NCBI GenBank assembly: GCA_010365215.1
Contig: JAAFGT010000034.1
Span: 1-40,379, forward strand
Direction: 5' to 3'
Length of the DNA stretch: 40,379 bases
From: Acidipila sp.
GTDB taxonomy: Bacteria > Acidobacteriota > Terriglobia > Acidiferrales > UBA7541
Below, piece by piece: positions 31,544 to 38,116 of the stretch. The position numbers and the translations under genes are program-made. The notes under the pieces are model-generated. The model saw nothing but the letters and a program-made list of their open reading frames with translations, was not told the DNA's origin and did no database searches. The stretch's first letter is position 1. Each line of letters starts with the position of its first letter.

Positions 31544-32062
31544 GTGATAGCGATTCGACAATTGGATGCGGCGGAAGGGCGCCAATACCTGGGCGCGCTG
31601 GCGGATGTGCTGCTGGATTGCGTGGCGGGGGGCGCCTCGGTGAGCTTTATGGCATCGCTTTCGAAGGCTGAGGCTGAAACATTTTTTGCAGGCGTGCTGG
31701 AAGGAGTGCGAAAGGGCGAGCGTATATTGCTGGCCGCGTTTATAGAATCGAAATTACTGGGGACGGTGCAGGTTTTATTGGCGACGCCTCCGAACCAGGC
31801 TCACCGGGCGGATGTGGCGAAGTTGCTGGTGGCGAGGGAGGCGCGCGGGCAGGGCGTGGGAAGCCGGTTGATGGAGCGCGCCGAACAGGCAAGCCGGGAG
31901 GCCGGAAGAAGTCTGCTGGTGCTGGATACGGTGACGGGAGATCAGGCGGAGAAGTTGTACTTGCGAATGGGATGGAGCAAGACGGGAGTGATCCCAAAGT
32001 ATGCGGTGTATCCGGATGGAAGGTGGTGCGATACGTCGGTTATGTGGAAGTGGATCGAGTAG
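31544..32062 (+). CDS. GNAT-family N-acetyltransferase
   Basis: Acetyl-CoA-dependent acetyltransferase; acceptor unknown. The 172-residue product has the GNAT core: LLGTVQVLL, then VAKLLVAREARGQGVGSRLMERAEQ (the R/Q-x-x-G-x-G acetyl-CoA motif) and LLVLDTVTGDQAEKLYLRMGW. The C-terminal DTSVMWKWIE is also typical of this type. Two GTG codons (31541, 31544) are possible; AAGGTG at 31533-31538 fits the second better. Monocistronic; a REP-like palindrome and the isc control region follow. Confidence 0.88.
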   Translation: MIAIRQLDAAEGRQYLGALADVLLDCVAGGASVSFMASLSKAEAETFFAGVLEGVRKGERILLAAFIESKLLGTVQVLLATPPNQAHRADVAKLLVAREARGQGVGSRLMERAEQASREAGRSLLVLDTVTGDQAEKLYLRMGWSKTGVIPKYAVYPDGRWCDTSVMWKWIE

Positions 32063-32133
32063 GGAGTGGATTTGCAGCATTGCGCAATTGGGGCCTGGGC
32101 GCCGCGTCCTGCGCAGGGGCCCTTGCCTCTCGA

Positions 32134-32153
32134 GGGCGGGGCAAGCCCCGCCC
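32134..32153. repeat. REP-like palindrome downstream of the acetyltransferase
   Basis: GGGCGGGGC and GCCCCGCCC are a perfect 9-bp inverted repeat with only AA between; a 6-base loop would leave seven pairs. It is followed by CCTAC. There is no T-run. This GC-rich type recurs between genes in many high-GC genomes. Confidence 0.6.
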
Positions 32154-32269
32154 CTACAATTGGCACAAGGGAGCTCACCCCGCCAGCCAAAGAGCGATCT
32201 CCGTTCAGACCTGCTATGGAACCACTCGGCTGATTACGGTGACCGTTCACTGGAGGAGCTTTGACCAAA

Positions 32270-32290
32270 TGGCGACTAGAATGGTCGTAT
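32270..32290 (+). promoter_or_regulatory. Upstream, weaker copy of the IscR-type site
   Basis: GTCGTAT (32284-32290) is identical to the right half of the main operator. Seven bases to its left CGAC (32273-32276) gives the left half in part. Spacing is the same (N7). It is centred about 98 bp upstream of the main site. Confidence 0.4.
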
Positions 32291-32333
32291 TGTAAGGCAT
32301 AGCGAGCAAAGGTCTTTGGGTGATTTCGAGAGC

Positions 32334-32362
32334 TTGACAGAAGCAACTTCGAGAGGTAGTAT
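32334..32362 (+). promoter_or_regulatory. Promoter of the isc operon
   Basis: TTGACA (32334-32339), a 17-base spacer and TAGTAT (32357-32362). A start near 32369 would lie inside the operator that follows. Confidence 0.7.
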
Positions 32363-32365
32363 TCA

Positions 32366-32388
32366 TATACGACTGAAAAGGTCGTATA
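32366..32388 (+). promoter_or_regulatory. Probable IscR operator (perfect inverted repeat)
   Basis: TATACGAC (32366-32373), TGAAAAG and GTCGTATA (32381-32388) form an 8-bp perfect inverted repeat with a 7-base centre. It begins 4 bases after the -10 box and covers the expected transcription start, ideal for repression by the first gene product. Confidence 0.7.
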
Positions 32389-32428
32389 CCCTACGTTCTC
32401 ATTTATTAGAACGGGCTGATTAACTGGA

Positions 32429-32866
32429 ATGTTCAAGCTATCTAAACGAGCGGATTACGGGCTTATTGCGCTGCGCCACCTGGCGATCAACAACAACCAG
32501 GTCGCGGCGAGCGCTGGTGACATTGCTGAGCTGTATGGAATTTCCGCGCCGCTGATGGCCAAGGTGCTGCAGAAGCTGGCGCGGCAGGGCTTGCTGCGGG
32601 CGCGGCACGGGTCGAGTGGCGGGTACACGCTGGCCAAGGACCCTTCCGACATTACCGCGCTCGACGCCATCAGCGCCATTGAAGGGCCATTGATGATCAC
32701 CTCGTGCCGCACGCATCGCGGCGAGTGCGACCACGCGACGCAGTGCACGGTGCGGGAGCCGTTGCAACGCTTGAACGAGAGTGTGCTGCAGGTTTTGGGG
32801 ATGGTAACAATTTTGCAGATGACCGAGGAGCGAGCGAGCTCGAGCCTGGTGGAACTGCGCGCATAG
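32429..32866 (+). CDS. iscR: Rrf2-family Fe-S cluster regulator IscR
   Basis: Senses iron-sulfur cluster supply and represses its own operon when loaded with a [2Fe-2S] cluster. The 145-residue product has the Rrf2 winged helix (KLSKRADYGLIALRHLA, ISAPLMAKVLQKLARQGLLRARHGSSGGYTL) and three cysteines, C93, C100, C106, in SCRTHRGECDHATQC. Spacing C-x6-C-x5-C differs by one from the x5-x5 of E. coli IscR, and the His used there as fourth ligand is not at the same place, so cluster ligation may differ. Promoter and a matching palindrome lie just upstream. Shine-Dalgarno is weak. Confidence 0.9.
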   Translation: MFKLSKRADYGLIALRHLAINNNQVAASAGDIAELYGISAPLMAKVLQKLARQGLLRARHGSSGGYTLAKDPSDITALDAISAIEGPLMITSCRTHRGECDHATQCTVREPLQRLNESVLQVLGMVTILQMTEERASSSLVELRA

Positions 32867-32878
32867 GGGGAATTACCG

Positions 32879-34099
32879 ATGGCCGTCAAGCTTCCCATTT
32901 ATCTGGACAATCACGCGACTACACCCTGCGATCCGCGGGTGGTGCAGGCCATGCTGCCGTACTTCACCGAAGTGTTCGGCAATGCGGCCAGCCGCAATCA
33001 CGCGTTCGGATGGCAGGCCGAAGAGGGCGTGGAAAATGCGCGCGCGGCCATCGCCAAGCTGATCGGCGCTACGCCCAAGGAAATTATTTTTACCAGCGGC
33101 GCGACGGAGTCGAACAACCTGGCCATCAAGGGCGTGGCGGAAATGTACCGCGAGAAGGGCAACCACATTATTACCGAGGCCACCGAGCACAAGGCGGTGC
33201 TGGACACTTGCAAGCGCCTCGAAAAGTACGGCTACGAAGTGACCTACCTGCCTGTGCAGAAGGACGGGCGCATCGACCTGGATGACCTGCGCAAGGCGAT
33301 TACGCCGAAGACGATCCTGATTTCGATCATGTATGCCAACAACGAGATCGGCGTGATCCAGCCGGTTTCGGAAATTGGCGCGATCGCGCGCGAGAAGGGC
33401 GTCTTCTTCCACACCGATGGGGTGCAGGCCGCGGGCAAGATTCCCGTGGACGTACAGAAAGACAACATCGACATGATTTCTCTGACCGCGCACAAGATGT
33501 ATGGACCGAAGGGCGTAGGCGCGTTGTATGTTCGCCGGCGCAATCCGCGCGTGCAGCTTTCGGCGATTCTGGACGGCGGCGGCCACGAGCGGGGAATGCG
33601 CTCGGGCACGCTCAACGTGACCGGGATTGTGGGCTTCGGGAAGGCCAGCGAAATCTGCATGAACGAAATGCCGGTGGAGTCGGCGCGGCTGATGAAGCTG
33701 CGCGACCGCTTGAAGGACAACATTCTGAGCCAGCTCGATGAGGTGTACATCAACGGGTCGATGACGCACCGCCTGCCGCACAACATGAACATGAGCTTTG
33801 CGTTCGTGGAAGGCGAATCGATGCTCATGGGCATCAACGACATCGCCGTGTCGAGCGGCTCGGCGTGCACTTCGGCTACGCTCGAACCCAGCTACGTGCT
33901 GAAGGCGCTGGGCGTGGGCGAGGATCTGGCGCACACCTCGATCCGCTTCGGCATCGGGCGGTTCAATACCGAAGAGGAAATCGATTATGTTACCGGGCGC
34001 GTGGTGGAGACGGTGGTCCGCCTGCGCGAGCTGTCGCCGCTTTACGAAATGGCAAAAGAAGGAATGGATTTGAGCAAGATGCAGTGGAACACGCACTAG
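32879..34099 (+). CDS. iscS: Cysteine desulfurase IscS
   Basis: PLP enzyme that takes sulfur from cysteine as an enzyme persulfide and gives it to IscU. The 406-residue product has the catalytic His in ATEHKAV (104), the PLP lysine in [12 protein letters not shown] (206), and the mobile-loop cysteine in [14 protein letters not shown] (330). The longer loop and the [13 protein letters not shown] sequence are of the IscS rather than SufS class. AGGGGG precedes ATG 32879. Starts 12 bases after iscR. In other species this enzyme also serves tRNA thiolation and molybdenum cofactor; a MoaD-MoaE gene is in this window. Confidence 0.95.
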
Positions 34100-34172: not shown

Positions 34173-34601
34173 ATGGCGTACTCAGACAAAGTAGTGGAGC
34201 ACTACAACCACCCGCGCAACGTCGGCTCGCTCGACAAGAAAGATCCGAGCGTGGGCACCGGCCTGGTGGGCGCGCCGGAATGCGGCGACGTGATGAAGCT
34301 GCAGGTGAAGATCAACCCGCAGACCCAGGTGATCGAGGAAGCCAAGTTCAAGACGTTTGGCTGCGGATCGGCGATTGCCAGCTCATCGCTGGCCACCGAA
34401 TGGGTGAAGGGCAAGACCGTCGAGGAAGCGCTGAGCATCAAGAACACGGACATCGTGCGCGAGCTTTCGCTGCCGCCGGTGAAGATTCACTGCTCGGTGC
34501 TGGCGGAAGACGCCATCAAGGCGGCGATCAACGACTGGAAGAGCAAGCAGGCGGCGGGAGTTCCCGCGGCCGAGCCGACTACTGCGGCGGCCAAGCAGTA
34601 G
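34173..34601 (+). CDS. iscU: Fe-S cluster scaffold IscU
   Basis: Scaffold on which [2Fe-2S] clusters are built. The 142-residue product has PECGDV (C37, D39), FGCGSAIAS (C64), and VKIHCSV (H106, C107). LPPVK (100-104), the HscA recognition sequence, is intact and matches the chaperone genes downstream. GGAGG stands 4 bases before the ATG. The last 16 or so residues (AGVPAAEPTTAAAKQ) are an Ala/Pro/Thr tail beyond the E. coli protein length. Confidence 0.95.
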   Translation: MAYSDKVVEHYNHPRNVGSLDKKDPSVGTGLVGAPECGDVMKLQVKINPQTQVIEEAKFKTFGCGSAIASSSLATEWVKGKTVEEALSIKNTDIVRELSLPPVKIHCSVLAEDAIKAAINDWKSKQAAGVPAAEPTTAAAKQ

Positions 34602-34629: not shown

Positions 34630-34959
34630 ATGATCCAGATCACTGAAAAGGCGGCACAGAAAATTCGCGACTTGCTGGTGAAGGACGGCGTCCCCGGCGA
34701 AACCGGGGGCCTGCGCGTGGGCGTGCAGGGCGGGGGATGCTCGGGACTTTCTTACGCCATGCGCCTGGAAATTAAGTCGCGCGAGCGGGACCAGGTCATC
34801 GAGGAAAATGGGGCGCGCTTGTTTGTTGATCCAAAAAGTTTTCTGTACTTGAACAACACCACCCTCGACTACCGCGAAGACCTGATGCGCCAGGGCTTTG
34901 TGTTCGAAAATCCCCTGGCCACGCGGTCTTGCGGCTGCGGCAGCTCTTTTACCGCGTAG
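34630..34959 (+). CDS. iscA: A-type Fe-S carrier IscA
   Basis: Carries Fe-S clusters or iron to target proteins. The 109-residue product has the three A-type cysteines: GGGCSGLSY (C37) and SCGCGSSF (C101, C103). Length and placement after iscU fit IscA; ErpA is very similar in sequence and cannot be ruled out. AGGA lies a few bases before the ATG. Confidence 0.93.
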   Translation: MIQITEKAAQKIRDLLVKDGVPGETGGLRVGVQGGGCSGLSYAMRLEIKSRERDQVIEENGARLFVDPKSFLYLNNTTLDYREDLMRQGFVFENPLATRSCGCGSSFTA

Positions 34960-35011: not shown

Positions 35012-35719
35012 ATGAAAATGAATGTTACCCAGACTGCCGCCGGAACGTCTTGCTGGAGCTGTAATGCGGCCACCGGCGGCGGGCACTTCTGCGCGGCGTG
35101 CGGAAAAATCCAGCCGCTGCCGCGCGACGCGAATTATTTTCAGTTTTTTGGGCTACCGCGGAAGCTGGTGATCGAGGGCAGCGCGTTGGAGGCGAAATTT
35201 CACCAGCTCTCCTGGAAGCTGCACCCGGATAATTTTGTGCGCGCCGCGGAAGCCGAGAGGCAGCTATCGCTGGAGCGCTCGTCGCAATTGAACGATGCGT
35301 ACCGCGTGCTGCGCGACCCGGTGGCCTGCGTGGAATATCTTCTGGGGCTCGAGGGCATGCGCAAAGAGGGCGCGGCCAAGCAGCAGGCGCCGCCGGAGCT
35401 GCTGGAAGAGGTGTTCGAGCTGAATGAATCGCTGGATGAGCTGCGCGGCGCGCGGCAGTCAGCCGACCAGGTAGAGATCAACACCTTGCGGCCGCGGCTG
35501 CAGGAGGCGCAAAAGAATTTTGAGGGCAAGCTGCGCGAAGTGGACGCGGACCTGGCGGGCGCGGCGAGGGACTGGGACGCAGCCGTGGATCGCGGGACGA
35601 ATGGCAATGCCAGCAATGCGGAACGTGGCAAGCTGCTGGCGAGAATGAACGACATTCTGAATCGCCGGTCGTATATCCGGAATCTGGTCAGCAGCGTGGA
35701 ACAGGAATTGGCGGAATAG
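35012..35719 (+). CDS. hscB: HscB co-chaperone with N-terminal zinc site
   Basis: J-protein that brings IscU to HscA. The 235-residue product has a J-domain (NYFQFFGLPRKLVIEGSALE and on) with HPD at 71-73 (KLHPDNF) and the HscB C-terminal helical domain (LEEVFELNESLDEL). Ahead of the J-domain are CWSC (14-17) and CAAC (27-30), a tetracysteine zinc-ribbon absent from E. coli HscB but present in human HSC20. Shine-Dalgarno is weak; ATG 35018 is an alternative start. Longer than the 171 residues of E. coli HscB by the zinc domain and a C-terminal segment. Confidence 0.9.
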   Translation: MKMNVTQTAAGTSCWSCNAATGGGHFCAACGKIQPLPRDANYFQFFGLPRKLVIEGSALEAKFHQLSWKLHPDNFVRAAEAERQLSLERSSQLNDAYRVLRDPVACVEYLLGLEGMRKEGAAKQQAPPELLEEVFELNESLDELRGARQSADQVEINTLRPRLQEAQKNFEGKLREVDADLAGAARDWDAAVDRGTNGNASNAERGKLLARMNDILNRRSYIRNLVSSVEQELAE

Positions 35720-35803: not shown

Positions 35804-37645
35804 ATGGGACGCACAGTTGGAATCGACCTGGGCACGACCTACAGCCTGGTGGCTTACGTAGACCCGGCTACGCAGCAGCCGCAGTGCATTGTGGGGCCGC
35901 ATGGCAGCGCGCTGTGCCCTTCGGTGGTGAGCCTCGATGCGGACGGCAAAATCGTGGTGGGCGAGCCGGCGCGGCGGCGGCTGCTGACCCAGCCGGAGCG
36001 CACGATTTATTCCGTGAAGCGGCTGATGGGCCGCGGCGTGGAAGATGTGCAGGAGGAATTGCACTTCTTCCCATTCCGCATCGATTCGGGGAGTGAAAGC
36101 GTCATCCGCGTGCGGCTGGGCGAGCGCGTTTTTACTCCGCCGGAAATTTCGGCGTTCATCCTGCGCGAGCTACGCAGCTGGGCAGAGAATTTTTTTGGCG
36201 ATACGGTGGATCGCGCGGTGATTACCGTGCCGGCTTATTTCAACGACGCGCAGCGGCAAGCTACGCGCGACGCGGGGCGGCTGGCGGGGCTGGAAGTCTT
36301 GCGGCTGGTGAACGAGCCGACCGCCGCAGCACTGGCCTACGGGTTACACCGGCAGCAACGCGGGCTGGTGGCGGTCTACGACTTCGGCGGCGGCACGTTC
36401 GACATTTCCGTGTTGAAGCTGATCACCACGGGCGATGGCGATATTTACCAGGTGCTTTCCACCAACGGCGACACGCATTTGGGCGGCGACGACATTGATA
36501 ACGCGCTGGGCGAGCTGGCGCGGCGCGAAATTCGCGAGCGTCTGGGGCTGGAAATTGACGCGCACTCCGAATCCGCGCAGGAGCTGCGCAAGGCGCTAAT
36601 CGCCGTGAAGCACGAGCTCTCTTCCGCGGACTCCGCGCTGGTGCGCGTGCTGCTGCCCGGGGGCCAGGGATATCAGCGCGAGCTTACGCTTGCGGAATTT
36701 GAAGAGCTGGCGCGGCCGATCATCGAGCGCACTATGGGCCCGGTGAAGCAGGCGCTGGCGGAAGCGCACCAGAAACCCGAGGCCATCGAAGAGGTGGTGC
36801 TGGTGGGCGGGTCGACGCGCATCCCGCTGGTGCGGCGGCGCGTGCAGGAATTTTTCGGCCGCGTGCCGCACGCGGAGCTCAATCCGGATGAAGTGGTGGC
36901 GCTGGGCGCAGCGGTGCAGGCGGATATACTGGAGAGCGGCGTGCGCAACATGCTGCTGCTGGACGTGACGCCGCTTTCGCTGGGCATCGAGACCATGGGC
37001 GGCGTGGTGGCGCAGATCATTCCGCGCAACTCGACGATTCCGGCGAGCGCGCAGGAGCTTTTTACCACTGGCGTCGACAATCAGACGGCTATTGATTTGC
37101 ATGTGCTGCAAGGCGAACGCGAGATGGCCAAGGACTGCCGTTCGCTGGCACGGTTCCAGCTGCGCGTGCCGCCGGTGCCGGCGGGGATGGCGCGCGTGGA
37201 AGTGAAATTCCTGATCGACGCCAGCGGCATTCTGCAGGTTCATGCGCGCGACCTGCTTTCGGGCGACGAGCGCACCGTGGAGGTGCAGCCCAGCTACGGG
37301 CTGACCGACGCGGAAGTGGAAAAAATGCTCGAGGATTCCATTGAATATGCGGAGCAGGATTTCGCGCAGCGGCAATTGATTGAGGCGCGCAATGAGGGCG
37401 ATAGCATTTTGCTGGCCACGGGGAAGGCGCTTGCGGGGGCCGCTGCGGGGCAGCTCGAGGCTGGCGAGCGCAGCGCGCTGAATGCGGACATGGCGGCATT
37501 GCGCAAAGCGATGGATGGAGAAGATTACAAATTGATTCGCGAGCGCATCGATGCGCTCAACCAGAGTACGCAGCATCTGGCGGAGCTGGTGATGAATGAG
37601 GTGCTGCACGAAGCGGTGGAAGGAAAGCGCGTCAGCGAAGTGTAG
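35804..37645 (+). CDS. hscA: Hsp70-type chaperone HscA
   Basis: ATP-driven chaperone that helps release the cluster from IscU. The 613-residue product has the Hsp70 ATPase: [56 protein letters not shown] and [14 protein letters not shown]. The substrate domain follows ([17 protein letters not shown]). It is shorter than DnaK in the C-terminal lid and lacks the DnaK acidic tail, as HscA does. Place after hscB supports HscA over DnaK. Its last codons and stop are in a 13-nt tandem repeat. Confidence 0.94.
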
Positions 37646-37702: not shown

Positions 37703-38116
37703 ATGGGCGGCAAGAATCCGTACATCCAGGAAACGCCGTACAAGCCGGCGACGAAGAAATATAAAGTTACGTTTCATGTGGATGGTGAGACCAAAGAAGT
37801 GGAAGTGGATCCGGCGCAGGTGCCTTACGGGCACGACGGGCTGCCCGGCAGCATTCTTGACGTGGCGCTGGGCGCGGGCATTGGACTGGATCACGCCTGC
37901 GGCGGCGTGAATGCGTGCTCGACCTGCCATGTGATTGTGGAGAAAGGCAGCGAATCGTGCAACGAAGCGACCGACGACGAGTTTGATGAGCTGGATGAGG
38001 CGCCGGGGATTACTCCGAAGTCGCGCCTGGGCTGCCAGTGCGTGCCGGATGGGACGGCGGACATTGTGATTGAAGTGCCGTCGTGGAATAAGAATTACGC
38101 GAAAGAGCATCATTAG
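37703..38116 (+). CDS. fdx: [2Fe-2S] ferredoxin of the ISC system
   Basis: Supplies electrons to cluster assembly on IscU. The 137-residue product has an adrenodoxin-type ligand set: HACGGVNACSTCHV (C66, C72, C75) and LGCQCVPDG (C111; C113 spare). It is acidic between ligands (DDEFDELDEAPG). Family Fdx is about 110 residues; an N-terminal segment (YIQETPYKPATKKYK) is extra. It lies 57 bases after hscA across the tandem repeat. Confidence 0.94.
   Translation: MGGKNPYIQETPYKPATKKYKVTFHVDGETKEVEVDPAQVPYGHDGLPGSILDVALGAGIGLDHACGGVNACSTCHVIVEKGSESCNEATDDEFDELDEAPGITPKSRLGCQCVPDGTADIVIEVPSWNKNYAKEHH

Follow-up and report, generated by a model that had tools for sequence, protein, structure and literature searches.

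The window (the whole 40,379-nucleotide stretch of Acidipila sp. DNA analysed here) carries an isc operon, iscR-iscS-iscU-iscA-hscB-hscA-fdx, together with a promoter, two operators and several repeated elements upstream of it (Table 1). In a promoter scan of both strands of positions 32040-32460, P1 was the sole sigma-70-like site (10/12 matches), and it is the only such promoter upstream of the operon. Directly downstream of its -10 box, after a gap of 3 bases, begins the perfect inverted repeat OP1. A first-pass annotation had given this layout with the correct sequence and coordinates but with a gap of 4 bases. Taken alone, the repeat is unremarkable: the window has two perfect inverted repeats of this geometry (arms of 8 bp, spacer of 7 bp) versus 1.35 expected, which is not beyond chance. 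As 40 kb of DNA should contain such palindromes by chance alone, the significance of OP1 must come from comparison. The iscR leader in the window comprises ~60 bases, longer than in many relatives; in many of these (e.g. L005, L006 and L047), only ~6 bases separate the end of OP1 from the start codon, without a visible Shine-Dalgarno sequence.

Table 1. Features of the isc locus, in window positions (scores in bits, with the cut-off of the respective model).
Feature	Position	Strand	Remarks
Three direct repeats, putative regulator sites	32201..32249	+	Exactly 21 bp apart; CCGTTCA 32201-32207, CCACTCG 32222-32228, CCGTTCA 32243-32249
OP2, second operator, TGGCGACTAGAATGGTCGTAT	32270..32290	.	Centre 97 bp upstream of OP1 centre
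OP2 flank, TNTAAG / GGNTTG	32291..32316	+	From column profiles; TGTAAG 32291-32296, GGTCTT 32311-32316
P1 promoter, TTGACA-N17-TAGTAT	32334..32362	+	TTGACA 32334-32339, TAGTAT 32357-32362, spacer 17 bp; predicted start ~32369-32371
OP1, main operator, palindrome TATACGAC-N7-GTCGTATA	32366..32388	.	Overlaps predicted transcription start; TATACGAC 32366-32373, N7 = TGAAAAG, GTCGTATA 32381-32388
iscR/risR-like Rrf2 regulator, 145 aa	32429..32866	+	Cys93-X6-Cys100-X5-Cys106, Asp9
iscS, cysteine desulfurase	32879..34099	+	NF010611 666, cut-off 548
iscU, scaffold	34173..34601	+	TIGR01999 214.8, cut-off 192.4
iscA/erpA-like carrier	34630..34959	+	TIGR00049 118.6, cut-off 58.8
hscB, co-chaperone	35012..35719	+	TIGR00714 56.0, cut-off 46.75
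hscA, chaperone	35804..37645	+	NF003520 702, cut-off 620
isc-type [2Fe-2S] ferredoxin	37703..38116	+	TIGR02007 91.6, below cut-off 132.1

The regulator encoded with the operon

The first gene of the operon encodes a member of the Rrf2 superfamily (TIGR00738, 103.5 bits; cut-off 73.3). The name IscR, under which it had been annotated, is appropriate only in a loose sense, because the protein fails both IscR equivalog models (TIGR02010, 68.4 versus 207.55; NF008110, 49.3 versus 275) and just passes the SUF-regulator model TIGR02944 (111.0 versus 110.65; the operon itself is isc), and because the published list of phyla for the RisR subgroup IS6 includes Acidobacteria (PMC9973013). Cys93, Cys100, Cys106, Asp9, Ala44 and Lys45 are shared by every member of the family set. 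Aligned with E. coli IscR, the protein has Arg109 at the position of the ligand His107, and the gate residue Glu43, the switch of the E. coli protein, is absent (Ala44 here). E. coli IscR holds its [2Fe-2S] cluster by three cysteines (Cys92-X5-Cys98-X5-Cys104) in addition to this histidine (PMC3899308), whereas the window protein has the spacing CX6CX5C; that its cysteine spacing differs had been proposed before and was borne out. NsrR of S. coelicolor, to which the regulator could be matched with phmmer (residues 3-132 versus 2-131 of NsrR), also has three cysteines, and, assuming no gap in the first residues, Asp9 stands at the place of Asp8, the intersubunit ligand of the [4Fe-4S] cluster of NsrR. 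However, NsrR senses NO, controls hmp genes and recognises another operator (PMC5411485), unlike the regulator considered here.

The nearest described system is RisR of Myxococcus xanthus. This Rrf2 repressor, too, is encoded with an Fe-S assembly operon, contains three cysteines and lacks the specificity residues of E. coli IscR; its cluster resembles [4Fe-4S], and it represses isc by way of a GAC-N7-GTC site, which it protects over the -10 box and the start of the isc promoter and whose mutation raises isc expression 3- to 4-fold (PMC9973013). The same core lies over the isc promoter of the window. The two systems differ in cysteine spacing (Cys92/102/108 of RisR, CX9CX5C), in the outer bases of the site (TkGAC..GTCCw versus TGCGAC..GTCGYA here), in the number of sites (one per promoter described for RisR, two here) and in scope: RisR also controls suf, whereas the genome of the window is without suf genes and no SufB was found in it. 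By its sequence, the regulator is thus RisR-like rather than an IscR of the E. coli kind.

Conservation and placement of the main operator

The comparison comprised 70 distinct promoters of close orthologues from the same order, with at least 57% identity of the regulator. Within the family, 68 of 89 genomes have this regulator, as do 5 of the 6 genomes compared from elsewhere in the order. The first-pass annotation had placed an operator across the transcription start of isc and had named, beforehand, conservation upstream of orthologous iscR genes as the test of it. This conservation was found: GACY-N5-RGTC lies within 100 bp 5' of the iscR start in 68 of the 70 promoters (0.28 expected), as opposed to at most 3 promoters in any of 200 runs of Markov resampling, and to 2 of 67 in a control region from -500 to -257. 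The promoter is maintained with it; at the place of P1, 69 of 70 sequences match at 9/12 positions or better, with a spacer of 17 or 18, and the distance from the end of the -10 box to the GAC of OP1 is 8 bp in 52 of 69. In more distant families of the class, GAC-N7-GTC is mostly kept at the same place, usually as a single site. One member of the class (L096, family f7) carries three GAC-N7-GTC sites in series, 19 bp apart, directly 5' of the regulator gene.

The consensus of the operator reads TGCGACYRAWYYRGTCGYATAT, of which the window arm TATACGAC is a minority spelling. In a 25-bp frame, the 59 promoters with both operators give AWN-TGC-GACY-RAWYY-RGTC-GYA-TAT for OP1, some positions being mixed; position -8 is G in 53 of the 59 sites and A in only 4. 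The previously suggested consensus, ATACGAC-N7-GTCGTAT, is thus a minority spelling, and scanning the organism's own genome with this spelling and 3 mismatches yielded 52 places versus 80 for the control, i.e., no excess. Nor does the operator have a different centre from the E. coli IscR type-1 site, as had been stated, because GAC-N7-GTC is the core of that site as well as of the footprinted Myxococcus RisR site. Compared with the 25-bp type-1 consensus ATASYYGACTRWWWYAGTCRRSTAT (quoted in PMC3899308), OP1 of the window agrees at 18 of 25 positions, 11 of them among the central 13. The 25-bp frame, the GACY-N5-RGTC centre, the outer AT/TAT and the autorepression of isc are features of the IscR type-1 systems of E. 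coli and P. aeruginosa (PMC3899308, PMC6599224); the triplet outside GAC differs, being mostly TGC here and SYY (RRS on the other side) in the E. coli site.

These findings make it very probable that OP1 is the autorepression operator of the isc operon. As transcription is predicted to begin at the palindrome's left edge, most of OP1 would be transcribed; it might instead act as an RNA hairpin at the isc mRNA 5' end, which would suit its closeness to the start codon in many relatives. The conserved AT outside the arms, however, fits the 25-bp type-1 frame on both sides, the second operator shares the core yet lies outside the transcript, RisR footprints on such sites (PMC9973013), and no Rfam match was obtained for the element; action as RNA is, thus, highly improbable.

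Equally improbable is that the palindrome is bound by a regulator other than the co-encoded protein. GAC-N7-GTC is common to several Rrf2 regulators, which would allow for such a factor, but the sites are nearly confined to one place: among the matches listed for the exact sequence TGCGACY-N5-RGTCGYAT in the 89 family genomes, 33 of 34 are at the iscR promoter. Moreover, operators are present in genomes in which a single Rrf2 gene was detected at E ≤ 1e-3 (e.g. G006, G008 and G012), and the SUF-bearing species of the family have a different Rrf2 paralogue and mostly a different half-site. In the organism's own genome, no exact match to the family consensus occurs outside the isc promoter. A wider regulon was considered and dismissed, as counts elsewhere at no more than 1 mismatch to TGCGACY-N5-RGTCGYAT were near those of the control. 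A near-perfect extra operator, TACGACCAAATTAGTCGTAT, coincides with the beginning of a large ORF whose N-terminal region is TonB-receptor-like (L249, ~4078, in genome G104), and a further site lies beside unrelated genes (L250); recurrence of either in other species was not seen.

A second operator and its neighbouring elements

Absent from the first-pass annotation is a second operator, OP2. Of the 70 promoters, 59 have a further GAC-N7-GTC 80-125 bp upstream of OP1, and the strict core is present in the interval -200..-101 in 55 of the 70 (0.17 expected). Core identity amounts to 0.73 for OP1 and 0.71 for OP2, whereas part of the DNA between the two is at background (0.27). As it is missing or degenerate in 11 of the 70 promoters, OP2 is not indispensable. 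It has no promoter of its own: across 59 promoters, its surroundings gave only 3 sigma-70-like matches, with none recurring consistently on the opposite strand. P. aeruginosa also has two sites, but these adjoin each other (A, -67 to -43; B, -42 to -18) and lie upstream of the start (PMC3899308, PMC6599224), whereas here the centres are 97 bp apart and one operator covers the start. For such a widely spaced pair, with the second copy ~nine helical turns upstream, no counterpart was found in the open-licence literature, as far as it was searched.

The spacing of OP1 and OP2 clusters at 95-98 or 104-109 bp. Mapped onto a tree of IscR plus IscS, the shorter spacing occurs in ten genera (g1-g5, g7, g9, g13, g11 with a relaxed core, and basal g6) and the longer one in the bulk of g6; singletons are 117 bp in L066 (106 in its sister L117) and 87 bp in L056. 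Only clade g12, with 101 and 102 bp, is off-phase; its OP1 has the altered sequence CGGAGACC, and three of its five members are without a recognisable OP2. This amounts to about four independent changes (+11, +11, -9 and +4/5), three of which are near a whole helical turn and which together suggest a demand for helical phase, the evidence being weak because the events are few. A Rayleigh-type phase statistic did not single out 10.5 bp; across all periods between 9.5 and 11.5, R stayed at 0.69-0.75.

Two dimers, one at OP1 and one at OP2, could bridge the sites so that the promoter lies within a DNA loop of ~97 bp. Such an arrangement is familiar from lac O1-O3 and similar systems, where one operator lies over the start and another ~90 bp upstream; the lac repressor is unrelated to Rrf2 proteins, and the likeness is one of operator layout alone. 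A loop would account for the kept spacing, for its change by about one turn both in g6 and in the singletons of 87 and 117 bp, for an OP2 without its own promoter, and for the altered OP1 and lost OP2 of the sole off-phase clade. On the other hand, neither a tetramer of an Rrf2 protein nor a loop formed by one was found in the open-licence literature, and the evidence for phase comes from few events. Bridging is, at present, a tentative reading.

The phase argument is further complicated by the surroundings of OP2. TNTAAG follows OP2 directly on its 3' side, and GGNTTG, weak in the window, begins 20 bp after it; identity in this flank is 0.47 versus 0.27 farther on. Upstream of OP2, CCRTTYR was matched 61 times in 56 promoters (3.4 expected), clustering near -66, -45 and -24 relative to OP2. 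Both the repeats and TNTAAG/GGNTTG keep their distance to OP2, while their distance to P1 shifts by ~10 bp. As OP2 shifts together with its neighbours, the whole module, and not OP2 alone, may need phase. CCRTTYR arrays with a 21-bp period also occur away from isc (G000:C89:1819-1867, C21:5365-5434 and C84:15600-15627, i.e. L244, L245 and L248; also L251 and L252). In the organism's own genome, 5 array matches compare with 0 for the reversed pattern. Some arrays hold a stretch such as CCCCCAATTTCGA between copies, and at two sites in the organism's own genome TTTATCAT comes next. The arrays are possibly sites of some further regulator.

Repressor at OP2 might, in place of a loop, block a putative activator that is bound at the CCRTTYR repeats and stimulates P1 from upstream. 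The fixed distance of repeats and flank to OP2 speaks for this, as does the existence of similar arrays elsewhere in these genomes; no factor is known for CCRTTYR, however, and several promoters with OP2 have no recognisable repeats. This interference is likewise a tentative reading; we rate it and bridging about equally, and what is left falls to simple additive occupancy or a raised local concentration of repressor. The full combination, an Rrf2 Fe-S sensor that bridges two operators some nine or ten turns apart, with spacing steps of whole turns, coupled to a 21-bp array for a putative activator, is rather unlikely. The role of OP2 is, thus, much less certain than that of OP1.

Proposed control of isc and its exchange for SUF

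From the observed sequences, their conservation and geometry, and the near-exclusive placement at iscR among the matches listed, we infer that both operators would be bound by the co-encoded regulator. The holo-repressor would carry an Fe-S cluster, probably [4Fe-4S]; its ligands would be Cys93, Cys100 and Cys106 together with Asp9 from the other subunit, the last on the model of NsrR. As a dimer, it would bind TGCGACY-N5-RGTCGYA at OP1, cover the stretch between the -10 box edge and ~+17 and so block initiation. Upon shortage of clusters, its own would be lost, the DNA released and the isc operon expressed; that the holo-form represses and the apo-form releases is carried over from RisR. A second dimer at OP2, ~97 bp upstream, would strengthen repression, whether by looping to OP1, by contacting it cooperatively or by interfering with an activator at the 21-bp repeats.

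Within the family, 17 genomes have SufB matches, and nearly all of these are without the isc regulator (G004 and G109 have both). The SUF operons of the family (L163-L176) begin with a different Rrf2 gene. Where their upstream regions could be read, most contain ATACTGTACTGGATTAGTGCTGTAT or a variant of it in the corresponding position after the -10 box, and a few keep GACY-N5-RGTC; the half-site differs at two bases, being CGACY at isc and GYACY in most SUF promoters. Since SufB-bearing genomes nearly all lack the isc regulator and SUF operons start with another Rrf2 gene, members of the family have exchanged ISC and SUF, the half-site being altered in most SUF promoters. An orthologue in f9, a further family of the class, lies immediately upstream of a gene identified as sufB-like by visual inspection of its translation; the site there reads GGACC-N5-GGTCC.

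Both the repressor type and the core motif were known previously. The consensus for these mostly uncultivated bacteria, and the repeat array attached to the operator pair, are new as far as could be found in the open-licence literature, in which the well-kept two-operator layout is also without a description for the Rrf2 family. The RisR-type GAC-N7-GTC switch is, thereby, extended to Acidobacteriota, a phylum with little regulatory data, for whose Fe-S homeostasis an operator consensus is now available for testing. In this one family, ISC and SUF nearly exclude each other, and each is accompanied by an Rrf2 gene of its own; most SUF promoters also have a half-site that differs at two bases (GYACY, versus CGACY at isc). 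This provides a natural system for studying how regulator and operator change together.
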